Shown in pieces: positions 3,432 through 35,131 of a DNA stretch of 35,131 bases (positions within the stretch are counted from its first letter, which is position 1; the number at the start of each line of letters is the position of its first letter). The position numbers were made by a program, and so were the translations under genes. Under the pieces are notes generated by a model. The model was not told where the DNA came from. It did no database searches and was given only the letters and a program-made list of their open reading frames with translations. The stretch is from the NCBI GenBank assembly GCA_012718885.1, contig JAAYBK010000119.1, positions 1 through 35,131 on the forward strand, given 5' to 3'. Origin of the DNA: Ruminococcus sp. (GTDB lineage Bacteria; Bacillota; Clostridia; Oscillospirales; Ruminococcaceae).

Positions 3432-6104
3432 TCAGTCCTCACGGTACTCCTCGACCATATAGGTCTCGAAGATATCGCCTTCCTTGACATCGCTGAACTT
3501 TTCGAGGCTGATACCGCACTCGTATCCCTCAGCAACATCCTTTACATCGTCCTTGAATCTCTTAAGGCCTGAGATCTTATCATCAGCAATGATGATACCG
3601 TCACGGACTACTCTTACCTGACAGCCTCTTGTAGCCTTACCGCTGAGTACGTAGCTTCCTGCTACCATACCAACGTTGGATATCTTGTATACCTGACGTA
3701 CCTCTACACGGCCAAGCTCAACATCCCTGAACTTAGGAGCGAGCATACCCTTCATAGCTGTGGAGATCTCCTCGATAGCATCGTAGATGATACGATACAG
3801 GCGGATATCCACTCCGTCACGGGCAGCATTCTCAGCAGCTACAGGATCCGGTCTTACGTTGAAGCCGACGATGATAGCGTTTGAAGCGTTTGCCAGCATA
3901 ACATCGCTTTCCTTTACAGCACCAACAGCGCCGTGGATAACTCTTACTCTAACCTCGTTGTTGGAGAGCTTCTCGAGGGACTGCTTTACAGCCTCAACAG
4001 AGCCCTGAACGTCAGCCTTGACAATGATCGGGAGTTCCTTTATCTCACCCTCAGCTATCTGACTGAACAGGTTGTCGAGAGTTACCTTGCGGTAAGCGTT
4101 GAACTGCTCCTGCTTCTGCTCATGCTTTCTCTGCTCGACCAGTTCACGGGCAAGTCTCTCATCCTCAACAGCGTTGAAGATATCACCGGCGCTCGGAACT
4201 TCAGCAAGACCTGTGATCTCAACCGGCACTGAAGGACCTGCGGACTTTACAGTTCTGCCCTTGTCGTTGGTCATAACTCTTACACGGCCTACGGCTGTGC
4301 CTGCGATAAGAACATCGCCCTGTTTGAGAGTACCGTTCTGTACGAGAAGTGTAGCGATAGGACCTCTGCCCTTATCGAGACGGGCTTCGATAACAGTACC
4401 CTTTGCAAGTCTGTCAGGATTTGCCTTGAGCTCCTTGACCTCGGCAACGAGGAGAACATTTTCCAGAAGCTCATCTATTCCGTCGCCTGTCTTGGCGGAA
4501 ACGGGAACACAGATAACATCGCCGCCCCAGTCTTCGCATACAAGGTCATACTTTGTAAGCTCTTCCTTGATACGGTCGGGGTTAGCTCCTTCCTTATCCA
4601 TCTTGTTGATAGCAACTATGATAGATACTCCGGCAGCCTTTGCGTGGTTGATAGACTCTACAGTCTGCGGCATGATACCATCATCTGCGGCAACAACGAG
4701 GATAGCGATATCAGTGATATTAGCACCTCTTGCACGCATTGAAGTGAAGGCCTCATGTCCGGGAGTATCCAGGAATGTGATATCCTGGCCGTTGATATTT
4801 ACCTGATAAGCACCGATATGCTGTGTGATACCGCCGGCCTCGCCTGCGGCAACGTGGGCATTTCTGATGCGGTCCAGGATAGAAGTCTTACCGTGGTCAA
4901 CGTGTCCCATAACAACGACTACAGGGCATCTTGGCTGGAGGTTTGTATCATCGTCATCGGTATCGTCGATAAGACGCTCCTCAATGGTAACGATGACCTC
5001 CTTCTCTACCTTTGCACCCATCTCGTCAGCTACAAGTGAAGCGGTATCGAAATCAATCTCCTGGTTGATAGAAGCCATTACGCCCAGTTTCATGAGCTGC
5101 TTGATAACATCTGTAGCGGTAGCTTTAAGACGTGTAGCCAGCTCGCCGACAGTGATAGAGTCAGGGATGAGCACCTTGAGCTGCTGCTTTCTTGCACGCT
5201 CCAGCTCAAGTCTCTTGAGCTTCTCAGCCTCGCTCTCCTTCTTGGAGAACTGCTGTCTGCTTCTCTGAGCGGACTTCTGATTTATCTTCTGCTTCTTTGA
5301 AGAGTAGTTGTCATTCTTATGCTTGTTTGAGGTTGCCATCTGATCGTATCTCTCGTTGTACTTATCGAGATCAACGTAGCTTCCTCTTGTATCGACAGTT
5401 CTGCGCTGAGTTGAAGTCTGAGCGGTCTCGGAGCTGAATGAAGCGTTGAACTTTGTGCGCTCGCCTCTGTCCTGAGCCTTAGCCTGCTCCTTCTTCTTAT
5501 CATTCTTCTTGGGCTTCTGCGGAGCCTGCTCCGGCTTCTTTTCGGGAGCTTTCGGAGCTTCCTGCTTTACCTCGGGCTTCTTCTCAGGAGCCTTGGGAGC
5601 CTCTGCCTTTACCTCAGGCTTCTTCTCGGGAGCCTTGGGAGCCTCTGCCTTTACCTCAGGCTTTTTCTCGGGAGCCTTGGGAGCTTCCTGCTTTACCTCG
5701 GGCTTCTTCTCAGGAGCCTTGGGAGCCTCTGCCTTTACCTCGGGCTTCTTCTCAGGAGCCTTGGGAGCCTCAGGCTTTTTCTCCGGCTTCTTCTCGGGAG
5801 CCTTTGGGGCCTCTGCCTTTTTCTCTGGCTTCTTCTCTGTCTTCTTGGCCGGAGCAGCCTTGCTCTCCTCAGCCTCGGCCTTCTTAGCCGGACGAGCCTC
5901 GTTCACAGAAGCAAAATACTCGTCGAAGGATGTTACCTCGTGGAGCTTTGTATAGTGCTCAAGCACCTTGTTCATCTCATCCTCTGTAAGGGAAGAGCCT
6001 GCTTTCTTCTTATTATCTCCGGTACTTGCGAAATAGTCGATCAGTTCCTGTGATGAAACGCTGATATCCTTTGCAGCGTCGCTTAACTTTATCTTTTTTG
6101 CCAT
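3432..6104 (-). CDS. infB: Translation initiation factor IF-2 with repetitive N-terminal extension
   Basis: GTPase motifs [29 protein letters not shown]2_N motif; 890 aa. Confidence 0.98.
5530..5830 (-). repeat. In-frame tandem repeat inside infB, about 42-bp unit (14 aa: [14 protein letters not shown]), about 7 imperfect copies
   Basis: Translated repeat [40 protein letters not shown]... visible in the infB N-terminus. Confidence 0.9.
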
Positions 6105-20044: not shown

Positions 20045-22396
20045 ATGAGCGAAACGACGAAATTACAGAATGCAGAAGTAAGGATAAAAGAAGTGGCAGA
20101 ACGTATTTCACATCTGCGTGAGGATCTTGGTATCTCCGTGGAAGAAATGGCTGCAATAACTGACTATTCCGTAGAAGAATACAAGAGGCTTGAATCCGGC
20201 GAGCAGGACTTCAGCTTTACATTCATCTATAAATGTGCAAACAAATTCAACGTTGAGATCACCGATCTCATGGAGGGAATCAGTCCTGAGCTCAGCGGAT
20301 ATACCGTTACCCGCAAGGGCGAGGGCGTGCCTATCGTCCGCAGAAAGGGCTTTGTATACAACCGCCTTGCATCCAAGTTCAAGAACAAGGCTGTTGAGCC
20401 CTTCCACGTTGTGATCCCCTATTCCGATGAAGCTCTTTCCCAGCCGCTGCATATGTCCAGCCATGCAGGCCAGGAAATGGATATCGTCATCAAAGGCACA
20501 ATGCGTATAACTGTAGGCTCACATACAGAGATCCTCCACGAGGGCGACTCTATCTACTATGACAGCTCCATGCCACATGATGAAGTTGCACTGGGCGGCG
20601 ATGACTGCGAAATCTACGCTTTTGTCACAGCTCCCCGCGGAACAACAGGCATGGCTGAATACAAGGAGCACGTTGCAGAGCATCACCTTACCAATGTGGA
20701 CAAGGCCGGCCTGCTCCACCCTATATCAGAAAAATTCGTAAAATGCGAGACAAATGAGGAGGGCATCCTCAGCGGAGTTCATTTCGTAAACCAGGATAAG
20801 TTCAACTTCGCATACGATATCGTTGACGCAATGGCAGAAAAATGCCCAGACAAAACTGCTATGATCTATGTGGATGTAAACCACAACGAGCGCCGCTTCA
20901 CTTTCAAGGATATCAAGAAATACTCCTGCCAGACCGCAAACTACTTCAAGTCCCTCGGCATAAAGAAGGGCGACCGTGTAATGCTGGTGCTCAAGCGCCA
21001 TTATCAGTTCTGGTTCTCGATCGTTGCCCTCCACCGTATCGGCGCACTTGTTATCCCTGCGTCAAATATGCTCAAGGAGCACGATTTTGAATACCGCTTC
21101 AATTCCGCTGAGATATCCGCTATCGTATGCTCTGCTGACGGCGACATCACAGCAGAAGTTGACAAGGCCTGCGCTGTAACAAATACTATCCGTACAAAGA
21201 TCATCGTCAACGGTCAGCGTGAGGGCTGGCACGACTTCAACGAGGAGCTCCCTGCATACAGCACTCATTTCGAGCGTACTGACGAAACTCCCTGCGGAAC
21301 TGATCCGATGCTCATCTTCTTCAGCTCAGGCACATCAGGCAATCCAAAGCTTGTTCTGCACAGCTATCAGTACCCTCTCGGCCACTATGTAACAGCCCGC
21401 TACTGGCAGAATGCCGATCCTAACGGCCTGCACTTCACTATCTCCGATACAGGCTGGGGCAAGGCTCTCTGGGGCAAGCTCTACGGCCAGTGGATGAATG
21501 AAGCAGCAGTATTCGTATACGACTTCGACCGCTTCCACGCAGACGACATCCTTCCCATGTTCAAGAAGTACAATATCACATCCTTCTGTGCGCCTCCGAC
21601 AATGTACCGCTTCTTCATCAAAGAGGATCTCTCCAAGTATGATCTCTCATCACTGAAATATGCCTGCATCGCCGGTGAAGCACTTAACCCGGAGGTATTC
21701 CACCAGTTCTACCGTGCAACAGGAATAAAGCTTATGGAGGGCTTCGGCCAGACCGAGACTACCCTTACTATCGCAAACGTTGTCGGCATGGAGCCTAAGC
21801 CCGGCAGCATGGGCAAGCCTAATCCGCAGTATGATGTACAGGTGCTCCTCCCCGACGGAACTCCCGCAGGCGTAGGTGAGACCGGTGAGATCTGTGTCAG
21901 ACTGAAGGATGAAAGCGTCCCCGGATACGGAGTCCCCGGCCTTGCACTCTGCTACTACGGCGACAAGGAGACTACTGCCGAGACATGGCGTGAGGGCTAC
22001 TACCATACAGGCGATACCGCATGGGTAGATGAGGACGGGTATTTCTGGTATGTGGGCAGAGTTGACGACGTTATCAAGTCCTCCGGCTACCGTATCGGAC
22101 CATTCGAGATCGAAAGCGTGCTCATGGAGCTTCCATATGTACTTGAGTGTGCCGTTACAGGCGTTCCGGATGAGATCAGAGGACAGGTCGTAAAGGCGAC
22201 CATCGTTCTCACAAAGGATAAAGCTCCGTCTGACGAGCTGGTAAAGGAGATCAAGGATTATGTCAAGGAGCGCACTGCACCTTACAAATATCCAAGAGTC
22301 GTTGAATTCGTTCCGGAGCTGCCAAAGACCGTAGGCAGCGGAAAGATACGCCGTGCCGCTATCCGTGAAATGGATAAGACCAAATATCAGAAGTGA
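20045..22396 (+). CDS. XRE-family HTH + cupin + AMP-forming acyl-CoA synthetase (ACSM/MACS-like) fusion
   Basis: HTH: ISHLREDLGISVEEMAAITDYSVEEYKRLESGEQDF. Cupin: PLHMSSHAGQEMDIVIKGTMRITVGSHTEILHEGDSIYYDSSMPHDEVAL. Ligase: FFSSGTSGNPKLV, SDTGWGKALWGKLYGQW, MEGFGQTETT, YYHTGDTAWVDEDGYFWYVGRVDDVIKSSGYRIGPFEIES, and C-terminal catalytic Lys region KTVGSGKIRR. Confidence 0.93.
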   Translation: MSETTKLQNAEVRIKEVAERISHLREDLGISVEEMAAITDYSVEEYKRLESGEQDFSFTFIYKCANKFNVEITDLMEGISPELSGYTVTRKGEGVPIVRRKGFVYNRLASKFKNKAVEPFHVVIPYSDEALSQPLHMSSHAGQEMDIVIKGTMRITVGSHTEILHEGDSIYYDSSMPHDEVALGGDDCEIYAFVTAPRGTTGMAEYKEHVAEHHLTNVDKAGLLHPISEKFVKCETNEEGILSGVHFVNQDKFNFAYDIVDAMAEKCPDKTAMIYVDVNHNERRFTFKDIKKYSCQTANYFKSLGIKKGDRVMLVLKRHYQFWFSIVALHRIGALVIPASNMLKEHDFEYRFNSAEISAIVCSADGDITAEVDKACAVTNTIRTKIIVNGQREGWHDFNEELPAYSTHFERTDETPCGTDPMLIFFSSGTSGNPKLVLHSYQYPLGHYVTARYWQNADPNGLHFTISDTGWGKALWGKLYGQWMNEAAVFVYDFDRFHADDILPMFKKYNITSFCAPPTMYRFFIKEDLSKYDLSSLKYACIAGEALNPEVFHQFYRATGIKLMEGFGQTETTLTIANVVGMEPKPGSMGKPNPQYDVQVLLPDGTPAGVGETGEICVRLKDESVPGYGVPGLALCYYGDKETTAETWREGYYHTGDTAWVDEDGYFWYVGRVDDVIKSSGYRIGPFEIESVLMELPYVLECAVTGVPDEIRGQVVKATIVLTKDKAPSDELVKEIKDYVKERTAPYKYPRVVEFVPELPKTVGSGKIRRAAIREMDKTKYQK

Positions 22397-23922: not shown

Positions 23923-23950
23923 ATTACTTCTTTTCGCTTATTGCAGCCTG
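23923..23950 (-). repeat. ppdK 3'-end-like repeat, copy A
   Basis: ATTACTTCTTTTCGCTTATTGCAGCCTG; encodes ...QAAISEKK* on minus. Matches the 3' end of ppdK (copy C, 33686) with identical spacing of conserved blocks. Confidence 0.75.
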
Positions 23951-23987
23951 TGCTGTAGATAGGGAGCAGTGAAACTCAAATCAACAA

Positions 23988-24139
23988 ATGGCTATATATC
24001 ACCATAAACTCGATACAGAAAAAGTCCTATACTTGCTGCGGTCATAATTGCTTACAGCGAAAATCATCTTAATATAATAAGTGATATTGCAGGGGCTATA
24101 TACCAAGAGATGCGTATGCAGAATCCAAACGACCAGTAA
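23988..24139 (+). pseudogene. Small ORF with single -1 frame disruption (or frameshifting)
   Basis: Frame 1: ATG...MAIYHHKLDTEKVLYLLRS*. A -1 shift at GAAAAAG gives MAIYHHKLDTEKSPILAAVIIAYSENHLNIISDIAGAIYQEMRMQNPNDQ*, a coherent short protein. Confidence 0.45.
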
Positions 24140-24170
24140 GTGTAGAGCCGCCCTTAATGATATATGATAA

Positions 24171-24206
24171 GAGCCTTGCCCCATTGGGGGCAGGGCTTAC
24201 TTTTAT
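24171..24206 (+). terminator. Intrinsic terminator after the disrupted small ORF
   Basis: GAGCCTTGCCCC att GGGGGCAGGGCTTactttta. Confidence 0.65.
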
Positions 24207-24221
24207 ACTCCAATCATTACC

Positions 24222-24263
24222 AAAAAAGTCCACACAGCCAAACTGTGAGGACTCATTGTTTTT
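24222..24263 (-). terminator. Intrinsic terminator (repeat-family copy)
   Basis: aaaaaaGTCCACACAGccaaaCTGTGAGGACtcattgttttta; minus-strand U-run after the stop of the gene at 24283. Confidence 0.82.
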
Positions 24264-24282
24264 ATTCCTATCTTAAAGACTA

Positions 24283-24975
24283 TTAAGACGGATTCCGATT
24301 CTTAAACCTTCTCAGTATATCTGCTATTTTCAGATACAGATATCCGACTATCAGCAGTACTACAAAAAGGAAAATTATCCACCACGCACAGCCCATGAAC
24401 GGCAGCTCGTCGGTGAAGCCGAATGCTCCGGCAGAACTTCCCCAGTTGAGGAAGAAGTACGGATAATTATAACCTTCCGCAAACTGCCAGTTTTCGACAT
24501 ATCCAATGCCAGCGTAGACAGCATACAGAATTGGCGGAACTATCACCCAGAACGTGTTACTCTTCTTGATATTGCTGCTGACTCCGACTACAAAAAAGTC
24601 AATTATCGCAGCGACAGGAACGACAACGTGAGTCAGTATGTTTTGCAGATTCCACGCCGCATTCCCAAGTGTTGGAGCCAATACAAAACAGAAGACTGCT
24701 CCCGTAAGGGTGATTGAAACTGTTCCTACGAATTTTATTACCCACCACAGGTCACTGACGGATTTGTTCCTGAACAGTCCTTTCAGACCTGCCGCACATA
24801 TTATAGCGATGGCAATATTGGACTGTATCGTTAAGTACATGAAAACACGGCTGCCGCCCATAAAAGAATGCCGTCCTGCATAAGCACTCAGAAAAGTACC
24901 AAGTATCGCTGAAAAGATCACTACAATTTTCAGAACACATGAGACTGCCCTTTGTTTCGGCGTAAACGTATTCAT
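24283..24975 (-). CDS. Pr6Pr-like multi-pass membrane protein
   Basis: 230 aa, about 6 TM helices; YLTIQSNIAIAIICA, NILTHVVVPVAAIIDFFVVG, YNYPYFFLNW. Family assignment by eye. Confidence 0.65.
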   Translation of the reverse strand: MNTFTPKQRAVSCVLKIVVIFSAILGTFLSAYAGRHSFMGGSRVFMYLTIQSNIAIAIICAAGLKGLFRNKSVSDLWWVIKFVGTVSITLTGAVFCFVLAPTLGNAAWNLQNILTHVVVPVAAIIDFFVVGVSSNIKKSNTFWVIVPPILYAVYAGIGYVENWQFAEGYNYPYFFLNWGSSAGAFGFTDELPFMGCAWWIIFLFVVLLIVGYLYLKIADILRRFKNRNPS

Positions 24976-24988
24976 AGTTTCACTTCCT

Positions 24989-26080
24989 TCAGAGCTTTAA
25001 AAGTGACTCGACCTGTGCTTTCTTTTGGTAAAGAACACAGCCTCCGTCGTGATTGTCAAGCAGGATATCGCTACTCCTGAGAGCTGTAAACAGCGGAGAA
25101 TGCAAAGCCTCACGAAGTGATGTATCCTTCACATTGATATCAGAATACGGCGAGAACGGACAGGGCTCAGCTCCGCCATGAGAATTGATGTGAAAGAAAC
25201 CTCGACCAGCTGCAACACAGCCTCCCGAACTTTTTTCATCTCCCGGGAATGAGATATACACCATTTCGGGACGTTCCTTACGCATACGCTGGATCTCGTT
25301 CATCAGGTACTCTCTCTGTACATCGCCCGGAGCAAGCTCGCGGCTTTCATCGGTTACGGGAACATACTCCACGAATATTACCGCTTTGCAGCCTTTTTCA
25401 GAAAGACTGTTTATAAATGCATCGGAAGTCACTTCTTTATAGTTATGCGTTGTAACAGTAACAGATGCTCCGAAAACAAGTCCGCGTTTTCTGAACTCGT
25501 CCATATTGGAGATAAGTTTATCATAAATTCCGGAGCCACGCCGTGAATCGGTCTGCTCACGGTTGCCTTCAATGCTCATGACAGGGATAAGGTTGCGGCA
25601 TTTATCGAAAAGCTCTAAATAGCGTTCATCCATGAAAGTGCCGTTAGTAAAGATCGGAAAGAGTATATTCTGCTTCTGACCTGCAGCTTCGATGATATCC
25701 CGCCGGAGCATAGGTTCACCGCCTGCGAGAAGGATAAAGCTGATGCCCATTTCGTCTGCCTCATCGAATATCCTCAGCCATTCCGCGTCTGTGAGCTGTC
25801 TCACAGGCTCGGAATCAACAGTGGCATGATTGCAACGCGAATAACAGCCTGCACAATGAAGATTACACTTGCTGGTTATACTTGCAATGAGGAAAGGTGG
25901 GATATGCTCGCCGTTATCCTCGGCTTTCCTGCGGCGTTTTGAGGCGATTCGGCTCGCTGCTGCAAATTTCAGCATAAAGGCACTTTCCCTTGGATTTTTC
26001 AGCGTTGCCCTGACAGCTTCGCCGACTATCCGCTCAACGCCCTTTGTCAGATATTCCTGAAGTTCAAATTTTTCGTTCAT
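24989..26080 (-). CDS. Radical SAM protein
   Basis: SKCNLHCAGCYSRC (CxxxCxxC), LAGGEPMLRRDI, C-terminal Cys-containing segments GGCVAAGRGFFHINSHGGAEPCPFSPYSD. Start reassigned to MNEKFELQEYL, just downstream of the gpx stop. Confidence 0.9.
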   Translation of the reverse strand: MNEKFELQEYLTKGVERIVGEAVRATLKNPRESAFMLKFAAASRIASKRRRKAEDNGEHIPPFLIASITSKCNLHCAGCYSRCNHATVDSEPVRQLTDAEWLRIFDEADEMGISFILLAGGEPMLRRDIIEAAGQKQNILFPIFTNGTFMDERYLELFDKCRNLIPVMSIEGNREQTDSRRGSGIYDKLISNMDEFRKRGLVFGASVTVTTHNYKEVTSDAFINSLSEKGCKAVIFVEYVPVTDESRELAPGDVQREYLMNEIQRMRKERPEMVYISFPGDEKSSGGCVAAGRGFFHINSHGGAEPCPFSPYSDINVKDTSLREALHSPLFTALRSSDILLDNHDGGCVLYQKKAQVESLLKL

Positions 26081-26084
26081 AGCC

Positions 26085-26633
26085 TCACCCAAGTAATTCT
26101 TCAACAGCCTTGCGCACCTCTGCCATATCAGTTGTAGGTTCAAAGCGTGCGATAACCTTACCAGTTCTGTCAACGAGGAATTTTGTAAAGTTCCACTTGA
26201 TATATGCCTTATCGCCGAATTTCTTATTGTTCATATCCGCAAACTTGTTTAGCATCGCATTCTTTATACCCTTGCCGAAGCCTGCAAATGGCTTTTCTGT
26301 GGCAAGAAAGGCAAAAAGTGGATCAGCACTGTCACCGTTCACATCGATTTTTGCAAACTGTGGGAACTCCGTACCGAATTTGAGCGTGCAGAACTGATGT
26401 ATCTCGTCCTCGCTGCCGGGAGCCTGATTTGCGAACTGATTACAGGGAAAATCGAGTATCTCGAAGCCTTTGTCTCGTAATTCCTTGTACATAGTTTCAA
26501 GCGGCTCATAATGCGGAGTAAAGCCGCATCCCGTAGCTGTATTCACGATAAGCAGCACCTTACCATTATAATCACTGAGACTTACGTCGTTGCCTGCGCG
26601 GTCTTTCACCATAAAATCGTACACTGTTTTCAT
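26085..26633 (-). CDS. Glutathione peroxidase-family protein (Cys form)
   Basis: VNTATGCGFTPHYEPLETMYKELRDKGFEILDFPCNQFANQAPGS...IKWNFTKFLVDRTGKVIARFEP: GPx motifs with Cys, no Sec TGA. Confidence 0.94.
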   Translation of the reverse strand: MKTVYDFMVKDRAGNDVSLSDYNGKVLLIVNTATGCGFTPHYEPLETMYKELRDKGFEILDFPCNQFANQAPGSEDEIHQFCTLKFGTEFPQFAKIDVNGDSADPLFAFLATEKPFAGFGKGIKNAMLNKFADMNNKKFGDKAYIKWNFTKFLVDRTGKVIARFEPTTDMAEVRKAVEELLG

Positions 26634-26655
26634 ACTTCATGCTCCTTTCAGATAG

Positions 26656-27096
26656 TCAGATATCATTTTCTTCCAATAATTCATACAGCAGCGAATAGAG
26701 CTGCTTTGCCTTTTCGGGACTGAGTTTTACGCACTTTCCAACCTTCATAGGGATATCCTTTGCCTGTTCCTGCAAGGCTCTGCCTTGTTCGGTCAGGTAA
26801 ATGAGAACTGAACGTTCGTCGTCTTTGCTGTGTGTCCTTTCGAGATATCCGAGAGTGCTCATCTTTTTAAGAAGAGGCGAAACCGTACCGTTGTCAAGCA
26901 TGAGCTTTTTACATATATCTCCGACAGTAACGCCGTCCTTCTCCCACAGAACAAGCATCACTATATACTGTGTGTAGGTCAGATTCAACTCCTTCAGATA
27001 CGGCGTATATAAGCCCGTTACAGTTCTTGCCGCAGCATACAGCGGAAAACAGAGCTGTTTTTCTATCTTCATAGCTTCCTTGTAGTTGTATTCCAT
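26656..27096 (-). CDS. MarR/OhrR-type transcriptional regulator
   Basis: IEKQLCFPLYAAARTVTGLYTPYLKELNLTYTQYIVMLVLWEKDGVTVGDICKKLMLDNGTVSPLLKKM; the N-terminal QLCFPLYA reactive-Cys motif is OhrR-like. Confidence 0.92.
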   Translation of the reverse strand: MEYNYKEAMKIEKQLCFPLYAAARTVTGLYTPYLKELNLTYTQYIVMLVLWEKDGVTVGDICKKLMLDNGTVSPLLKKMSTLGYLERTHSKDDERSVLIYLTEQGRALQEQAKDIPMKVGKCVKLSPEKAKQLYSLLYELLEENDI

Positions 27097-27123
27097 TGTT
27101 CTGCCTCCTCAATTTATGTTGTT

Positions 27124-27161
27124 TGCAATTATATTGTATCAAATATAAACCCGTTTGTCAA
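27124..27161 (-). promoter_or_regulatory. Promoter with overlapping OhrR-like operator upstream of marR-gpx-rSAM
   Basis: Minus strand TTGACA - 17 nt - TACAAT; the -10 is embedded in the near-palindrome TACAATATAATTGCA (27124-27138), similar to the published OhrR half-operator TACAATTAAATTGTA (from memory). Confidence 0.7.
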
Positions 27162-27197
27162 GTATCCTTGCTTTATTTTTGATATTTAACTTCAGAC

Positions 27198-27240
27198 AAA
27201 AAAGTCCTCACAGCCGAAGCTATGAGGACTCATTGTTTTT
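27198..27240 (-). terminator. Intrinsic terminator (near-duplicate of the one at 24222)
   Basis: aaaaaaGTCCTCACAGCcgaaGCTATGAGGACtcattgttttt; about 45 nt shared with 24222-24263 including flanks. Confidence 0.82.
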
Positions 27241-27242
27241 AT

Positions 27243-27350
27243 TCAGATAAACACATTAACGTGAATATCACGCCAGCTTAGTATCCTACGCTTTGTGGAC
27301 TTCGCGTAAAGGTATTCTTTAGCATCTTCCAGATTCAGCGTAAAATAGCC
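27243..27350 (-). pseudogene. Gene remnant encoding a conserved C-terminal segment (copy B)
   Basis: ...GYFTLNLEDAKEYLYAKSTKRRILSWRDIHVNVFI*; aligns ungapped to the fragment downstream of ppdK at 33565-33678. Confidence 0.55.
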
Positions 27351-27369
27351 AATCTGAGTGTATTTCGAA

Positions 27370-27397
27370 ATTACTTTCCTTCGTTGATTGCAGCCTG
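27370..27397 (-). repeat. ppdK 3'-end-like repeat, copy B
   Basis: ATTACTTTCCTTCGTTGATTGCAGCCTG; encodes ...QAAINEGK* on minus. Confidence 0.72.
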
Positions 27398-27537
27398 ACA
27401 GGAAATGAATACACCTATCTGATATAAAAGTGCGTAATATGGGCGCGTGTCCTTTCTGGACTGGCAGTGCTTTTACATACTGCCGTTAGCGCAGGAATAT
27501 ACAAGAAAAACAGGCTTAACGGCTATCTTAAATATTG

Positions 27538-27888
27538 TCATTTGCCTATTATCTTTAATATCTCCGCAGACTTGAGAGTTTTACCGGATGAAACGAGCTT
27601 CTCATTGACAACGAGCGCAGGCATTGACATTGCACCGTACTCCATTATCTTCTGCAAGTCTGTGACATACTCGACCTCGATGCCCATTCCCTCAACTGCC
27701 TTGACAGTGTTGTCGTAGAGCTGATGGCAGGCTTTACAGCCCGAACCGAGCACCTTGATACAGCAGATACCGTCAACAGGTTCACCGCAGCAAGTAGATG
27801 TAGTCTCAGTTGCAGTCTGCTCTCCGCCGCAACAGTAGCATGAAGTTTCCTCTTTCTTCTCTTCCTTTTTCTTACCAAATAATGCCAT
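27538..27888 (-). CDS. Small thioredoxin-like redox protein (TM0996/MTH895 type) with Cys-rich N-terminus
   Basis: IKVLGSGCKACHQLYDNTVKAVEGMGIEVEYVTDLQKIMEYGAMSMPALVVNEKLVSSGKTLKSAEILKII; N-terminal SCYCCGGEQ...STCCGE. Confidence 0.9.
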   Translation of the reverse strand: MALFGKKKEEKKEETSCYCCGGEQTATETTSTCCGEPVDGICCIKVLGSGCKACHQLYDNTVKAVEGMGIEVEYVTDLQKIMEYGAMSMPALVVNEKLVSSGKTLKSAEILKIIGK

Positions 27889-27900
27889 GATATATTCCTC

Positions 27901-28896
27901 CTAAATGATGTAATTCTGAATGAGATTAAAGAAATATCCGACAAGGATAATTCCGACTGTACAGATAGCGATGAAAATGCAAAGCAGCTTAGGCTTTATT
28001 GCCTTTTTCAGCATTATCATTGACGGTAGTGAGAGCGTGATAACGCCCATCATAAATGCGAGAACTACGCCGAGCTTTGCACCCTTTGCGACCAGTGCTT
28101 CTGCAATGGGGATACAGCCGAAAATGTCAGCATACATCGGTATTCCGCATATCGCAGCTATGATAACTCCGAAGGGATTTCCGGTTCCAAGAACGGTTAC
28201 TATCCATTCCTCAGGTATCCAGTTGTGGATGATCGCTCCGATACCTACGCCTGCTATAATATACGGCAGGACTTTCTTTGCTGTTTCAGCTACTTTCTCC
28301 CAGGCGTATCTCATTCTATCACACTTTGAGAGTTCATTCTGCGGAGTGTCAATGCTCCTGCCGTTACGAATAAACTCCTCCACCTGATTTTCAAGGTGCA
28401 GCTTTTCGATAAGCGTACCGCCTGTGACTGCAATAACAAGTCCGACAACTACATATACTACAGCGACCTTCCAGCCGAAAATGCTCATCAGCAGAACGAG
28501 CGATCCGAGATCTACCATTGGTGACGATATAAGAAACGAGAAAGTCACTCCCAGCGGAAGTCCTGCACTTGTAAAGCCCATGAACAGCGGTATTGAGGAA
28601 CAGGAGCAGAATGGTGTGATTGTTCCGAGCAAAGCTGCGATACAGTTTGCGCCGATACCGTGGAACCTGCCAAGTATCTTTTTCGTTCTTTCTGGTGGAA
28701 AATAGCTCTGTATAAAGGTTATCACAAATATCAGCACGCCCAGCAGAACCATTATTTTTATCATGTCATAGATGAAGAATTGCAGACTGCCGCCCAGCTT
28801 GCCGCTCGTATCAAGACCGCAGGCGTTCAGCAAAGAGCCGATAAGCCTGTTCAGCCATTTCATGCCGAATATCTCATCCTGGATAAAGTCCCACAC
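27901..28896 (-). CDS. Predicted permease (UPF0718/ArsP-like)
   Basis: GANCIAALLGTITPFCSCSSIPLFMGFTSAGLPLGVTFSFLISSPMVDLGSLVLL: permease motif with FCSCSS. Confidence 0.9.
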   Translation of the reverse strand: MWDFIQDEIFGMKWLNRLIGSLLNACGLDTSGKLGGSLQFFIYDMIKIMVLLGVLIFVITFIQSYFPPERTKKILGRFHGIGANCIAALLGTITPFCSCSSIPLFMGFTSAGLPLGVTFSFLISSPMVDLGSLVLLMSIFGWKVAVVYVVVGLVIAVTGGTLIEKLHLENQVEEFIRNGRSIDTPQNELSKCDRMRYAWEKVAETAKKVLPYIIAGVGIGAIIHNWIPEEWIVTVLGTGNPFGVIIAAICGIPMYADIFGCIPIAEALVAKGAKLGVVLAFMMGVITLSLPSMIMLKKAIKPKLLCIFIAICTVGIILVGYFFNLIQNYII

Positions 28897-29342
28897 TATT
28901 CTTCATCACCTCCGAGCATTTCTGCAACTATCTCTGCCGCAGTTCTTACCATTTCGGGGCAGAGCGTTCTGAATAGTCCGTTTGACCTTGCTTTGTTCCT
29001 GTCTTCCTCATTCCTGAGGTCGCAGCCTAGGATATCGCGGCAGATATATGAGTCCTTGCGCTTCTCAAACTCATCAAGGAACTTAACTGCCATATCACGG
29101 CCTTTGGCACGGCTTGCTGTGTCATTGAGGTCGAACTGTCCGTACCTCATTCCAAGAACCATGAGCGCTCCTGTACAAGCGCCGCAGACTTCTCCCTTGC
29201 ACATTCCTCCGCCGAAACAAGCACCTATCTGGAATGCCTGTTTTTCGGTAATGCCGAACTGCTCCGCAAACGCAGCAAATACCGCCTGCGAACACATATA
29301 GCCATTTTCATAATACTGTACTGCTTTTGAAACATTATCCAT
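28896..29342 (-). CDS. C_GCAxxG_C_C family protein
   Basis: CSQAVFAAFAEQFGI...GACFGGGMCKGEVCGACTGALMVLG: family-defining cysteines. Confidence 0.92.
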   Translation of the reverse strand: MDNVSKAVQYYENGYMCSQAVFAAFAEQFGITEKQAFQIGACFGGGMCKGEVCGACTGALMVLGMRYGQFDLNDTASRAKGRDMAVKFLDEFEKRKDSYICRDILGCDLRNEEDRNKARSNGLFRTLCPEMVRTAAEIVAEMLGGDEE

Positions 29343-29396
29343 TTTCTTATCCTCCGATTGTTATATTTAGATGTATCGATTTGTTTCCGCTGTTTA

Positions 29397-29418
29397 AAGC
29401 CGTATGACCATACGGCTT
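29397..29418 (-). terminator. Stem-loop overlapping the arsR stop codon (partial terminator/attenuator)
   Basis: AAGCCGTAT gacc ATACGGCTT; only a short T-run follows on minus. Confidence 0.55.
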
Positions 29419-29725
29419 ACTTATTACAGCATTTACATTCGCTTTTGTTTACAGCCGTGATCTCTTTCAGGCAGTCCATAGCGATCTTAGCACCTTCCTG
29501 CGAAATAGAGTAGTGCATCCACTTGCCATCTTTTCTGCCGACCACAAGTCCGCTTTCGCAGAGCACCTTCATATGGTGAGAGAGTGTCGGTTGACTCAGG
29601 TGAAGCTCCTCAAGGAGATGACAGGCGCATAGTTCGCCGTTTTGCAGGATTCTGAATATCTGAACTCTGTTTTCATCACACAGGGCTTTGAATATTACCG
29701 TGATCTGCTTGTTTGATAACTCCAC
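29417..29725 (-). CDS. arsR: ArsR-family metalloregulator
   Basis: FKALCDENRVQIFRILQNGELCACHLLEELHLSQPTLSHHMKVLCESGLVVGRKDGKWMHYSIS: ELCACHLL metal-binding CxC plus wHTH; C-terminal CKCCNK. Confidence 0.95.
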   Translation of the reverse strand: MELSNKQITVIFKALCDENRVQIFRILQNGELCACHLLEELHLSQPTLSHHMKVLCESGLVVGRKDGKWMHYSISQEGAKIAMDCLKEITAVNKSECKCCNK

Positions 29726-29754
29726 GTTCTCACCTCATATTGAAGATTTTCTAT

Positions 29755-29789
29755 ATTATAGCATACACATTGAGATTTGTCAATGTGTA
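29755..29789 (-). promoter_or_regulatory. arsR promoter with perfect 10-6-10 inverted-repeat operator
   Basis: Minus TTGACA - 17 nt - TATAAT; TACACATTGA-n6-TCAATGTGTA (29764-29789) covers the -35 and spacer. Confidence 0.85.
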
Positions 29790-29857
29790 ACTGAAAATTT
29801 TTCTAATACTTTCTAAGCAAAAGAGAAGTCTTGTTGTTGAGAGCTTTAATGATAAGA

Positions 29858-30112
29858 CTATTCTTCCAACAGATTATAGATACCGTCCTCTGAGAGAACG
29901 CCGCGTTTCATGTCTTTCGGAAGCAGTCCGGCTTCATCGGCTGCATAGTCTCGTTTCCACGCAGAGCTGCTATAATAGTCGGATAAAGCTTTCAAAAGTT
30001 CAGGAGAACCGTTTTCTGTCTCCTGCATTATTTTTTCATAATGGGCTATACGTTTTATCTGCTCTTGTACAGATTCCGGTGTGGAAGGCAGTATTTTCTC
30101 AAATCGGAACAT
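29858..30112 (-). CDS. DUF4298-type small protein
   Basis: RIAHYEKIMQETENGSPELLKALSDYYSSSAWKRDYAADEAGLLPKDMKRGVLSEDGIYNLLEE. Confidence 0.75.
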   Translation of the reverse strand: MFRFEKILPSTPESVQEQIKRIAHYEKIMQETENGSPELLKALSDYYSSSAWKRDYAADEAGLLPKDMKRGVLSEDGIYNLLEE

Positions 30113-30155
30113 TTCAAATAATTCGCCGTCTTTATCATCCGGCGCACAATGATGC

Positions 30156-30599
30156 TCATTGAAATACTCGACGATATGGAAAACCGCAGCGGTTCACATA
30201 GAAATGGATATTGCGCTTTTCAAAATAAGGCGTAACAGTTTCCCAGACTGTGACCTCCGGGTGCATAGCTTCGATCTCACACCACGTTGCGTATCCTATG
30301 CCTTTGCTGTGAACGGCAGGCGAAACAAACAGCAGTTCCAGCTCGCCCTGATCGAATTCGGTCTTTATAACAACGCCACCGACGGGTTTGTTATCCTGCA
30401 TGATACGGTAGGCAGCACCTTCATCAATTGCATGAGAAATAGTATCATGTGAGATTATCTCGCCGTCCTCCTCAAAATGATCATCCCGCTGACCAAATTC
30501 TTCACGAGCACCGTAATTGAATGCTTCCTGATTGTCCTTTATAAACTGCTCTCTGTCTGACGTTTCAAGCGGAATAAGCTGTACTTTTGTCATAATCAA
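30156..30599 (-). CDS. GNAT family N-acetyltransferase
   Basis: GVVIKTEFDQGELELLFVSPAVHSKGIGYATWCEIE...VTPYFEKRNIHFYVNRCGF. Confidence 0.88.
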   Translation of the reverse strand: MIMTKVQLIPLETSDREQFIKDNQEAFNYGAREEFGQRDDHFEEDGEIISHDTISHAIDEGAAYRIMQDNKPVGGVVIKTEFDQGELELLFVSPAVHSKGIGYATWCEIEAMHPEVTVWETVTPYFEKRNIHFYVNRCGFPYRRVFQ

Positions 30600-30608
30600 T
30601 CTCCTTTT

Positions 30609-31175
30609 TTATAATCCAAGTCCATATCCTGCCCCTATCCCTATCACCGCAGACAGAATAATGATCTTGATCGGGTGTACCTTTTTGAACGCAAGCACGG
30701 TGGTAACGGCGAATAATCCGAGGAATATCCAAAAGCCCGCTGAAGAAAAAGCAGATATACTGATACCAGACGGAAAGAACACTGTCCTCGTAACAGATAT
30801 AAAGGCTGCACCTATCATTCCGACAACAGCAGGTTTCAAGCCCGACATGATACCGCCTACAGCTTTGCTTTTCTCATACTTCTCAAAACACTTTGCGATG
30901 ATAAGTATAATGATAAATGACGGCAGAACAATACCAAGTGTTGCGATGATAGCTCCGAGCACACCACAAGTTCTCATTCCTACAAATGTAGCCATATTTA
31001 CTGCAAGCGGTCCCGGCGTGCTCTCACTCAGAGCGACGAAATCCACAAGCTCTTCCTGTGTCAGCCAGCCCTGACTTTCAGCTTCCGCCTGTATCATAGC
31101 GATCATTGCATATCCGCCGCCGAATGTGAAAGCACCTATTTTCAGAAAGGCAAGAAACAGTTTAATCAGTACCAT
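30609..31175 (-). CDS. Chromate transporter (ChrA/CHR short-chain subunit)
   Basis: LFLAFLKIGAFTFGGGYAMIAMIQAEAESQGWLTQEELVDFVALSESTPGPLAVNMATFVG. Confidence 0.93.
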   Translation of the reverse strand: MVLIKLFLAFLKIGAFTFGGGYAMIAMIQAEAESQGWLTQEELVDFVALSESTPGPLAVNMATFVGMRTCGVLGAIIATLGIVLPSFIIILIIAKCFEKYEKSKAVGGIMSGLKPAVVGMIGAAFISVTRTVFFPSGISISAFSSAGFWIFLGLFAVTTVLAFKKVHPIKIIILSAVIGIGAGYGLGL

Positions 31176-31725
31176 TGCTTTGCTCCTTTCTGTTCAAAAG
31201 CGACCAAATCAAACCAAACAAGCCGCAGCCGATGATGACAAAGACAGCATCAATTTTCAGAAAAGCAGTCAGCACAAGTGAAAGCCCCATGATCGCATAG
31301 GAAAATGGTTGCTTTTTCTTCTTCACCTGATGAAACATCATCCACAGGGCTTTCAGTATCAGTGCAAGCACGGCTGCACGGATACCCATAAAAGCATACC
31401 TTACTGCCCTGATGCTCTGAAACTGCGTCAATATCATAGAGATAAGCGAAATAATAAGGAAAGATGGCAGGACAACTCCGATAGTAGCCATACACGCACC
31501 GAGAAACCCCGATGTCTTATATCCTACAAATGTTGCGGCATTGATCGCGATCGGGCCCGGTGTTGATTCTGAAATTGCAACAATATCAGATATTTCTTTT
31601 TCATTCAGCCATTTTTTGTTTTCGCATACTTCTTTCTGGATCAGCGGGATCATTGCATAACCGCCGCCGAAGGTAAAAGCCCCGATCTTCATAAAGGTCA
31701 GGAACAATTCAAGATTCTTATTCAC
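31162..31725 (-). CDS. Chromate transporter (ChrA/CHR short-chain subunit, paralogue)
   Basis: LTFMKIGAFTFGGGYAMIPLIQKEVCENKKWLNEKEISDIVAISESTPGPIAINAATFVG; probable GTG start (VNKNLELF) with AGGAG upstream. Confidence 0.93.
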   Translation of the reverse strand: MNKNLELFLTFMKIGAFTFGGGYAMIPLIQKEVCENKKWLNEKEISDIVAISESTPGPIAINAATFVGYKTSGFLGACMATIGVVLPSFLIISLISMILTQFQSIRAVRYAFMGIRAAVLALILKALWMMFHQVKKKKQPFSYAIMGLSLVLTAFLKIDAVFVIIGCGLFGLIWSLLNRKEQSNGTD

Positions 31726-31797
31726 AATATCACTCCTACAAAAAATTATAACAAATGAAGTAATATCAGTCAATATCCGAAAATGCCAAGAATATAC

Positions 31798-31842
31798 TTG
31801 ACATAAGTCGGAAAATATGTTATAATCGACATAAGTCAGAAA
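31798..31842 (+). promoter_or_regulatory. Consensus promoter with two direct-repeat operator candidates
   Basis: TTGACA(31798-31803) - 17 nt - TATAAT(31821-31826); GACATAAGTCgGAAA (31800-31814) and GACATAAGTCaGAAA (31828-31842). Confidence 0.8.
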
Positions 31843-31854
31843 GGAGATGCTATT

Positions 31855-32586
31855 ATGCCAAGGCCTCAGAAATCACGCCGTATCTGTTGTTATCCAGATT
31901 ACTGGAGCTTTGCCCCCGATCAGGATACAGCAAACGATACAGTCGTTATGTCGCTTGACGAGTTTGAAACGATACGTCTGATAGATTATCAGTCAAAGAC
32001 GCAGGAACAGTGTGCTCAGGAGATGAACGTGGCGAGAACGACCGTCACAGCGATATATGACATTGCAAGAAAAAAACTTGCTCAGGCTTTGGTCGAGGGC
32101 AGACGCATCGTCATTTCAGGCGGAAATTATACTCTTGACAACACTATCTCAGAGGAGATAACTCAGAAAGGAAGCACAATTATGAGAATCGCAGTAACTT
32201 ATGAAAACGGACAGATTTTCCAGCACTTCGGCAGAACAGAGCAGTTCAAGCTGTACGATGTTGCCGACGGCAAGATAATAAACGAGCAGGTAGTTGGAAC
32301 AATGGGTGCAGGGCATGGTGCGCTTGCAGGATTCCTGAAAAACGCTCAGACTGACGTTCTGATCTGCGGAGGTATCGGCGGCGGTGCGCAGATGGCTATG
32401 CAGGAGGCTGGTATCGCTCTTTACGGCGGCAATACGGGAAGCGCTGACGAGGCGGTTGCTGCTTTTCTTGCACAGACACTTGTTCAGAATGAGAAACCTA
32501 CCTGCGATCATCACGATCACGAACACGGCGAAGGTCATTCCTGCGGAGATCATGGCTGCGGCAGTCATAGCTGCGGTAATCACTGA
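31855..32586 (+). CDS. DUF134 (UPF0251) DNA-binding domain fused to NifX/NafY-like dinitrogenase iron-molybdenum cofactor domain with His/Cys-rich tail
   Basis: MPRPQKSRRICCYPDYWSFAPDQ...VVMSLDEFETIRLIDYQSKTQEQCAQEMNVARTTV (DUF134); MRIAVTYENGQIFQHFGRTEQFKLYDV...GGIGGGAQMAMQEAGIALYGG (NifX-like); CDHHDHEHGEGHSCGDHGCGSHSCGNH tail. Confidence 0.9.
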   Translation: MPRPQKSRRICCYPDYWSFAPDQDTANDTVVMSLDEFETIRLIDYQSKTQEQCAQEMNVARTTVTAIYDIARKKLAQALVEGRRIVISGGNYTLDNTISEEITQKGSTIMRIAVTYENGQIFQHFGRTEQFKLYDVADGKIINEQVVGTMGAGHGALAGFLKNAQTDVLICGGIGGGAQMAMQEAGIALYGGNTGSADEAVAAFLAQTLVQNEKPTCDHHDHEHGEGHSCGDHGCGSHSCGNH

Positions 32587-33395
32587 TGAGAATTGTAACC
32601 CTTGTAGAGAATACCTGCGGACATGAAGACTGTATCGCAGAACACGGCCTATCCCTTTACATCGAGACAGAGAATCATAAGCTCCTGCTCGATACAGGAC
32701 AGACTGACGCTGTTGTAAAGAATGCAGAAGCTCTCAGTATAGACCTGTCTGCTGTCGATACTGTGATACTGAGTCACGGTCACTACGACCATTCAGGCGG
32801 TATACTGCCATTTGCCGAGGAGAATCCGGAAGCAAGGATAATTATGCAGAAATCCGCAGCAGAGCCCCACTACAACGGAGAACGCTACATCGGAATTGAT
32901 ACAGATATCCTTAAACTGCCGAATATTCAGCTCATAGACGGCGATATGGAACTTGATGACGAGCTGTTCCTGTTCAGCGGTATTACAGGCAGACGGTGCT
33001 ATCCACAGGGGAACAAAAAACTGTCCTGCATAAAAAACGGCAAAAAGGTCTGTGACGATTTCTGTCATGAGCAGTGCCTTGTCATAAAGCAGAACGGCAA
33101 GCGCTGGCTGCTGTCCGGCTGTGCTCACAACGGTATACTCAATATCATTGACCGATACAGAGAGATTTTCGGAAACGCTCCCGACTATGTTATCACAGGA
33201 TTCCACATGATGAAACGTGAGGGCGAGCATACCGAGGAAGAAAAAGCTGTTATCATTCAGACGGCGCAGGAACTTTCACAGCTTGATACCGTATTTTACA
33301 GCGGACATTGCACGGGCATTCCTGCATTCGAGCTGATGAAAGATATAATGGGAGATAAACTCATTGCTTTGCACAGCGGAGAAGAAATACTATAA
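32586..33395 (+). CDS. MBL-fold metallo-hydrolase
   Basis: VENTCG...LLLDTGQTDAV...VILSHGHYDHSGGI...LSGCAHNGILNII...VITGFHMM: MBL HxHxDH motif; start overlaps the upstream stop (TGATG). Confidence 0.92.
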   Translation: MRIVTLVENTCGHEDCIAEHGLSLYIETENHKLLLDTGQTDAVVKNAEALSIDLSAVDTVILSHGHYDHSGGILPFAEENPEARIIMQKSAAEPHYNGERYIGIDTDILKLPNIQLIDGDMELDDELFLFSGITGRRCYPQGNKKLSCIKNGKKVCDDFCHEQCLVIKQNGKRWLLSGCAHNGILNIIDRYREIFGNAPDYVITGFHMMKREGEHTEEEKAVIIQTAQELSQLDTVFYSGHCTGIPAFELMKDIMGDKLIALHSGEEIL

Positions 33396-33397
33396 TA

Positions 33398-33434
33398 AAA
33401 AAGCTCTTACAGTTCAAAACTGTAAGAGCTTTTT
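33398..33434. terminator. Bidirectional intrinsic terminator
   Basis: AAAAAGCTCTTACAGTT caa AACTGTAAGAGCTTTTT, 17-bp perfect stem. Confidence 0.92.
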
Positions 33435-33519
33435 GTTGATGTACAGGTTACATTTCTCTGTACTGATTACACCTATACTGCTATCAGATTAGTGATCCAA
33501 CCAATTCCAGACACAATAA

Positions 33520-33549
33520 ATCCCCCTGAACCGAAATGATTCAGGGGAT
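33520..33549 (-). terminator. Intrinsic terminator downstream of ppdK and its adjoining remnant
   Basis: ATCCCCCTGAAccgaaatgaTTCAGGGGAT; on minus followed by TTTATTG. Confidence 0.75.
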
Positions 33550-33564
33550 CGTTATTAACATCAG

Positions 33565-33678
33565 TTATCCGCAGATGCGAACTTCAACATTGATATCATC
33601 CCATATTTTGGGACGTATCGTTTGTCCGTTCGCGGCTCTGAAAGCCTTTGCTTCTTCCAATGTTATATCGAATGTGCA
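33565..33678 (-). pseudogene. Gene remnant or short coding tail directly 3' of ppdK (copy C)
   Basis: CTFDITLEEAKAFRAANGQTIRPKIWDDINVEVRICG* with no start codon; 12/31 identical to the copy B fragment without gaps. Confidence 0.5.
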
Positions 33679-33685
33679 TTATATA

Positions 33686-33713
33686 ATTACTTCTTGTCAG
33701 CGATTGCAGCCTG
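33686..33713 (-). repeat. ppdK 3' end, intact reference copy (copy C) of the A/B/C repeat
   Basis: ATTACTTCTTGTCAGCGATTGCAGCCTG; encodes QAAIADKK* of ppdK. Confidence 0.75.
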
Positions 33714-35131
33714 AGCAGCAGCGAGACGAGCGATCGGAACACGGAAAGGTGAGCAAGATACATAGTCGAGGCCGATCTTGTGGCAGAACTCAACAGATGT
33801 AGGATCACCGCCGTGCTCACCGCAGATACCGCAGTGGAGCTTAGGATTTACAGGCTTACCGAGCTTGATAGCCATTTCCATGAGCTTGCCTACGCCAGTC
33901 TGATCGAGCTTAGCGAAAGGATCGTTCTCGAAGATCTTCTTGTCGTAGTAAGCGCCGAGGAACTTACCAGCATCGTCACGAGAGAAGCCGTAAGTCATCT
34001 GAGTAAGGTCATTTGTACCGAAGCAGAAGAAGTCAGCGTTCTTAGCGATCTCGTCAGCTGTAAGAGCAGCTCTCGGGATCTCGATCATTGTACCAACTTC
34101 GTACTCGAGGTTAGCGCCAGCCTCAGCGATAACAGCGTCAGCAGTCTCAACAACTACCTTCTTAACGAACTTGAGCTCCTTAACGTCGCCTACGAGCGGG
34201 ATCATGATCTCAGGCTTAACGTTCCAATCGGGATGATTCTTCTTAACGTTGATAGCAGCCTTGATAACAGCCTTTGTCTGCATTGCAGCGATCTCAGGAT
34301 ATGTTACAGCAAGACGGCATCCACGGTGACCCATCATTGGGTTGAACTCGTGGAGAGAAGCGATGATGTTCTTGATATCAGCAACTGTCTTGCCCTGTGA
34401 CTTAGCAAGGAGCTCGATATCAGCTTCCTCAGTAGGAACGAATTCGTGAAGAGGAGGATCCAGGAAACGGATTGTTACCGGGTTGCCCTCGAGAGCCTCA
34501 TAGAGAGCCTCGAAGTCGCTCTGCTGCATTGGCTCGATCTTAGCGAGAGCAGCCTCTCTGCCTTCAACTGTATCTGAGCAGATCATCTCACGGAAAGCAG
34601 CGATTCTGTCAGCCTCGAAGAACATGTGCTCTGTACGGCAGAGACCGATTCCCTCAGCGCCGAGCTCTCTTGCCTTCTTAGCGTCAGCAGGAGTATCAGC
34701 ATTTGTTCTAACCTTAAGTGTTCTGTACTTATCAGCCCAAGCCATGATTCTTCCGAACTCACCAGCGATCTGAGCGTCAACAGTAGCGATGATACCATCG
34801 TAGATGTTACCTGTTGTACCGTCGATTGAGATGTAGTCGCCCTCAGCAAATGTCTTGCCACCGAGCTCGAACTTCTTGTTAGCTTCATCCATCTTGATGT
34901 CGCCGCATCCTGAAACGCAGCACTCACCCATACCACGAGCAACAACAGCAGCGTGTGATGTCATACCGCCACGAACTGTCAGGATACCCTGAGCAGCCTT
35001 CATACCTGTGATATCCTCAGGTGATGTCTCGAGACGAACGAGAACGACCTTCTCGCCTTTTTCTGCCCATGCAACAGCGTCGTCAGCTGTGAATACGATC
35101 TTACCGCAAGCAGCACCGGGTGAAGCACCGA
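33687..35131 (-). CDS. ppdK: Pyruvate, phosphate dikinase, C-terminal part (runs off right edge)
   Basis: [129 protein letters not shown]. Confidence 0.97.
   Translation of the reverse strand, partial: [480 protein letters not shown]

Follow-up and report, generated by a model that had tools for sequence, protein, structure and literature searches.

The 3' end of ppdK as a probable attachment site of large serine recombinases that carry the attachment core in their own coding region

The 3' end of ppdK, the gene for pyruvate phosphate dikinase, is very probably the attB site of a clade of large serine recombinases (LSRs) that carry the attP core within their own 3' coding region and whose gene would be split by integration. 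The attB site would correspond to the last ppdK codons. This proposal is based on sequence data, which establish the position of the core, the pairing of reading frames, the restoration of recombinase genes in silico, the conservation of the detached tails and the recurrence of core-bounded cassettes. From these data we infer that a circular form of the elements exists.

The window, i.e. the whole stretch of 35,131 nt that was analyzed, harbors three copies of a site, designated A, B and C, which share the 8-bp core CAGGCTGC (Table 1). Copy C is located at the end of ppdK, the C-terminus of which has orthologues in 74 of the 115 genomes of the genus. The ungapped alignment of the peptides downstream of B and C with 12 identities in 31 positions, on which the original prediction was built, was reproduced at the minus-strand sites given there. 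The claim that the match of B goes beyond chance was supported by a comparison with 27,686 stop-free 31-mers from all six frames of the window, in which the B/C pair reached a BLOSUM62 score of 50 vs 27 for the runner-up. Furthermore, profiles built independently for the two tail types match each other with an hhalign probability of 93.8 and an E value of 1.7e-7. The tails had been placed 39 and 27 nt after the stops; they begin 26 nt (B) and 14 nt (C) past the TAA, and the difference of 12 nt between the two offsets was correct. Searches of Pfam with the peptides yielded nothing above the cut-off and only a sub-threshold match to TruB-C_2, and a repeat finder applied to the window reported only the ppdK-end similarity D4 and did not pick up the tails. 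Tail C lacks 14 nt compared to its relatives, which reduces the distance between core and F codon from 55 to 41 nt and places it out of its native frame; it is predicted to be dead through this frameshift. Copy B has a 95% identical counterpart in the same genome (C244:4377-4572) and a weaker one at C244:1907-1969. On the same contig, an apparent 3' half of a tRNA gene (TTCGAATCCCATCTCCCACCCCA; L002 1890-1935) is located near a B-type tail copy that is not preceded by ppdK.

Table 1. Features of the window that relate to the proposed attachment sites, tails and cassettes.
Feature	Position	Strand	Basis
ppdK (pyruvate phosphate dikinase), 3' part	33687..35131	minus	ORF, 5' open at contig end
Putative att core C, CAGGCTGC, within ppdK codons QAA	33706..33713	minus	same core in LSR 3' ends of relatives
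Putative type-1 LSR tail C, FDITLEEAKAFRAANGQTIRPKIWDDINVEVRICG and stop	33565..33672	minus	89-91% identical tails in G008, G009 and G019
Peptide C, FDITLEEAKAFRAANGQTIRPKIWDDINVEV	F codon at 33672, stop ending at 33565	minus	
Putative att core B	27390..27397	minus	core match
Core B and putative type-2 LSR tail, GCNQRRKVISKYTQIGYFTLNLEDAKEYLYAKSTKRRILSWRDIHVNVFI and stop	27243..27397	minus	GCx frame open from core to stop, no Met codon
Peptide B, FTLNLEDAKEYLYAKSTKRRILSWRDIHVNV	F codon at 27344, stop ending at 27243	minus	
Putative att core A (..GCACAGGCTGCAATAAGCGAAAAGAAGTAATTC), tail lost	23943..23950	minus	core match
Cassette C-to-B, 6.3 kb, no recombinase	27398..33713		bounded by cores C and B
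Cassette right end (ACTGCCAGTCCAGA..ATTTCCTGT, then core)	27390..27462	minus	conserved in LSR-less cassettes
Cassette B-to-A, 3.4 kb, no recombinase	23951..27397		bounded by cores B and A
AMP-binding gene, chromosomal anchor beside the hotspot	20045..22396	plus	neighbour comparison across genomes

The conserved segment had been suggested to be the end of an unrecognised small protein family. Instead, it represents the C-terminal tail of LSRs and is read in a frame that differs from that of ppdK. Contig SVNK01000008.1 of Ruminococcus sp. SIG537 (G013) contains two copies of this tail. One follows ppdK at 71,475, and the other, at 81,897, forms the C-terminal end of an ORF of 678 aa, which encodes an LSR (PF00239 and PF07508). 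The domains Resolvase (PF00239) and Recombinase (PF07508) were present in the three core-bearing LSRs tested, the LSR also matches the integrase family phrog_95, and the top Foldseek matches for the whole protein are serine integrases. Many LSR genes of the genus terminate within a few dozen codons of the core, and in related Clostridia the core, as CAGGC[T/A]GC, is located inside the 3' coding region of the LSR. The LSR gene L034 of G098 has a 3' end nearly identical in DNA sequence to copy B of the window, and the LSR genes L035 and L036 terminate in a ppdK-like 3' end. Since LSR genes end at the core, and since L034 corresponds to B and L035 and L036 correspond to the ppdK end, A, B and C would be copies of an attachment site and the peptide an LSR tail. 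Of the composite of ppdK end and conserved coding segment that was originally thought to have been duplicated or recombined, the relocation by recombination is retained, most likely as a site-specific event at the att core, but a gene duplication is not.

Core and tail are joined in frame in the LSRs L028, L030, L149, L150, L153, L154 and L186. In eight related LSRs the same tail is fused directly to the body of the protein with no core in between, and these predicted proteins show that the tail is the normal C-terminus of LSRs. The contiguous arrangement was considered as an ancestral state, but this was not supported by the LSR tree, which nests this clade inside the interrupted ones, and the change may have run in either direction. 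AlphaFold models, computed for one contiguous-tail LSR and for the last 214 residues of this protein, reached pTM values of only 0.40 and 0.37, too weak to assign a structural role to the tail, with a strand-helix-strand fold of the tail predicted only locally. Weak tail matches outside the genus but within the order (L012, L016-L018) as well as L019 were dismissed as chance matches, as they lie in unrelated long ORFs or have no core nearby. One LSR subclade (L182, L187 and L191) has 3' ends of the type CAAARRAIGT..KGEQDT and no corresponding tail behind ppdK. It probably uses another target gene and parks its tail there, and was excluded from the ppdK argument. Plasmid records contained distant LSRs only.

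Two types of tails were distinguished, type 1 being the tail at C and type 2 the tail at B, which are normally read in different frames from the core. Applying a score threshold of at least 50, 31 of the 70 ppdK loci of the genus carry a tail. Type 2 is in frame GCx (GGC-TGC) in all 20 tails at ppdK loci, type 1 in frame RLx (AGG-CTG) in 10 of 11, the sole exception being the frameshifted tail C of the window. The two frames of the tail types are also those in which the corresponding LSR clades read the core. The reading frame from core to stop is open in 24 of the 31 tails, and the silent tail is positioned about 14-35 nt past the ppdK stop in the frame of the LSR. At five ppdK loci of the genus with ends of the ADKK or ADQK type, a stop is read before the type-2 tail. 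Further homologues and conservation at the codon level, the absence of which had been named as refuting the original prediction, are both present: pN/pS in the tail frame is 0.36 for type 2 (27 sequences) and 0.48 for type 1 (12 sequences), compared to 0.93-1.42 in most other frames and 0.59-0.60 in one reverse frame, in a test that is partly circular because the tails were found by protein HMMs.

Codon-level conservation in one frame, together with a position behind ppdK that is conserved across families, would also be expected if the tail were an independent small protein gene. However, the B tail of the window and many others contain no Met codon, the open frame begins within ppdK or an LSR gene and has no start of its own, the same sequence forms the C-terminus of complete LSRs, and B is not located behind any ppdK gene; we regard this explanation as very improbable. 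It is likewise most unlikely that the segment is the right arm of attP only, conserved as DNA for binding of the recombinase and not as protein. Half-sites of LSR att sites flank the core on both sides, which together with the invariable position of the segment next to the core would be in line with such an arm, but conservation extends to ~150 nt from the core and thus exceeds the typical LSR site of about 50 bp. Moreover, the peptide is retained where synonymous sites vary, and other LSRs carry the same peptide fused without a core. For Bxb1 a minimal attB of 38 bp is cited in PMC10083194.

Mixed end types at some ppdK loci, e.g. an ADKK end with a type-2 tail, suggest that gene conversion may also occur. 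Nevertheless, there is very little probability that tails and cores were spread between ppdK ends by homologous recombination or gene conversion with no site-specific integration, as LSR genes beside ppdK-linked islands terminate in the correct frame at the core, and sharply core-bounded cassettes recur in differing orders.

Site-specific integration of the LSR elements was further analyzed by excision in silico. An LSR is located 3' of ppdK on the same contig and strand in G007, G013, G018, G061, G064 and G072. For these arrays, the LSR up to its core was joined to the sequence that follows the left-end core of its cassette, for which the ppdK-proximal core was used in G007. A full-length ORF was restored in four of the six, with the LSR being extended from 588 to 627 aa in G018, from 579 to 625 aa in both G061 and G007 and from 609 to 642 aa in G064. 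The fifth, in G013, is a tandem array of two LSR elements in which joining exchanges one tail for another, and G072 was not restored because both junctions contain a TGA. The integrated LSRs of G007 (..GCSGCYR) and G061 (..GCSGCNR) terminate at a TGA of the attB half-site. In G007 (C27, near 16.7 kb; L013/L022), a ppdK-like end and a type-1 tail lie beside GTCGCGCCCCACGTGGGCGTGTGAGTTGAAAT repeats that resemble a CRISPR array.

Outside the genus, a survey of named genomes revealed relatives of the LSRs in other Oscillospiraceae, Lachnospiraceae (Blautia sp. An81), Eubacteriaceae, Acutalibacter and Faecalibacterium, and tail matches were located directly behind ppdK in 16 of them. In the 20 genomes that allowed both LSR and tail to be inspected, integrated LSRs end 2-35 aa past the core. 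Joining within the same genome restored a tail of 46-51 aa in 15 of these 20, including Blautia sp. An81 and Faecalibacterium; outside the genus, no full-length ORF was obtained in G135, G139, G146 and G149, and G156 is cut by the contig edge. Two predicted proviruses from IMG/VR (201 kb and 175 kb) start in ppdK and finish at an LSR core, and in the former the LSR has 580 aa in its integrated form and 625 aa after joining to the tail.

The three cores of the window delimit two cassettes, neither of which contains a recombinase. According to Pfam, the C-to-B cassette encodes proteins with MBL fold, DUF134/Nitro_FeMo-Co, GNAT, DUF4298, ArsR and C_GCAxxG_C_C domains, two chromate transporters (ChrA), an ArsP permease and a thioredoxin. 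It recurs in G098 with 93% identity over 5.7 kb in another array order, where it adjoins a cassette that directly follows ppdK in G008. G064 and G094 also contain it, bounded by the same right end, which is common to several copies in G098 and to G008, G064, G071, G094 and G114. The B-to-A cassette contains genes for MarR, a glutathione peroxidase, a radical SAM protein and one 230-aa protein; it recurs in G008 (94% identity over 2.3 kb), and parts of it occur in G084, G128 and G009. The 230-aa ORF (24283-24975), located beside the radical SAM gene, has no match in Pfam. As in cis-mobilizable or SCC-like elements, direct att repeats are found at both ends, an internal recombinase is absent and the unit recurs in G098, G064, G094 and G008. 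No LSR of this clade was detected at E 1e-20 in the assembly of the window itself (G000, 86% complete). The segments in the window are regarded as remnants and not as an LSR, because only tails and cores are left in window and genome. In G098 (C2, 441-463 kb; L315/L316), tandem core-bounded cassettes have an LSR at one end, and the ppdK of this genome is not on the contig; this array probably occupies a second site or was relocated by rearrangement.

According to the proposed mechanism, the LSR gene of the free circle would consist of body, core and tail and encode the full-length enzyme. Integration would replace its last ~45-50 codons by joining the body to host sequence, and the reading frame of the body would run on for 2-35 codons beyond the core, in some cases up to a stop that attB provides. 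The tail would be joined to ppdK and remain silent in another frame, and the C-terminus of ppdK would be preserved because the half-site of the element encodes an equivalent one. Excision would restore the LSR. Repeated integration could generate tandem arrays in which tails are swappable and LSR-less cassettes persist, and the window would represent two such cassettes of an array. The loss of the tail presumably alters the activity of the enzyme, most simply by damping it after integration, which would lock the element in. It is conceivable, and put forward here tentatively, that integration itself serves a bacterial serine integrase as a switch at the protein level, with a shared pool of tails and a cassette-capture array. 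The free element would then produce the full-length integrase and the integrated element a tail-less form for which the reverse reaction would be impossible or would require help. The tails stored at the ppdK site that the elements share could form a common pool, with which superintegration or tandem neighbours could re-arm or re-specify integrases. The array itself could act as a platform for cassette capture in gut Clostridia.

Several known systems share features with this arrangement. SCCmec-type and other serine-recombinase cassettes and CIMEs also employ a serine recombinase and insert where a conserved gene ends (3'), and they form tandem cassettes with direct att repeats as boundaries, some of which have no recombinase; however, to our knowledge no recombinase tail is split off and stored at the target in these systems. 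Mycobacteriophages with integration-dependent immunity, such as BPs and its relatives (PMC9262239, PMC8092301), have attP within a coding gene, a stop at the attL junction cuts off a C-terminal segment, and the proteins of the free and integrated states differ. In contrast to the LSRs, this gene is a repressor and the segment removed is a degradation tag; in addition, the integrases are tyrosine enzymes with mostly tRNA targets, and no tail is kept beside a host protein gene. The archaeal 'suicidal' tyrosine integrases of SSV1, pTN3 and pT26-2 (reviewed in PMC8371274) harbor the att site inside the integrase gene, which is split by integration, as is the LSR gene in silico, and chimeras through exchange between related elements have been proposed. 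They are tyrosine enzymes of the SSV/pT26-2 family, whereas the LSRs have serine recombinase domains, and the archaeal split separates the catalytic part whereas that of the LSRs removes only about 45-50 C-terminal residues. Catalogued LSRs (PMC10083194) share the enzyme class and the preference for target genes, and an attP within the LSR coding sequence is not mentioned in that work. In the openly accessible literature we found no paper that links serine recombinases with pyruvate phosphate dikinase, nothing direct on ppdK as attB or on an attP within a serine integrase gene, and no account of a recombinase, bacterial or of the serine class, that splits its own gene. The combination of serine recombinase, internal attP and parked tail is present in none of the systems compared.

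Self-disrupting recombinases were stated to occur exclusively in archaea (PMC8371274), whereas the LSRs would represent a bacterial case in an unrelated, serine family. The range of self-splitting LSRs would cover Ruminococcus, other Oscillospiraceae, Lachnospiraceae (Blautia), Faecalibacterium and predicted proviruses. A central question for serine integrases in genome engineering is what prevents the reversal of integration, and the arrangement suggests that a detachable C-terminal tail could be a built-in one-way mechanism. Annotated LSRs of these groups would often be C-terminally incomplete because only the integrated form was sequenced, and their missing residues could be read behind ppdK.

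The 3' end of ppdK emerges as a major island hotspot that had apparently gone unreported. In the window, the AMP-binding gene marks its far side; this gene is the neighbour of the LSR end in G007, G057 and G104 and is located near ppdK in G048 and G092. At 5487-5890 of the window, a minus-strand ORF (3432-6104, 890 aa) contains seven 42-nt repeats arranged head-to-tail, which are 66-91% alike to the reference copy.
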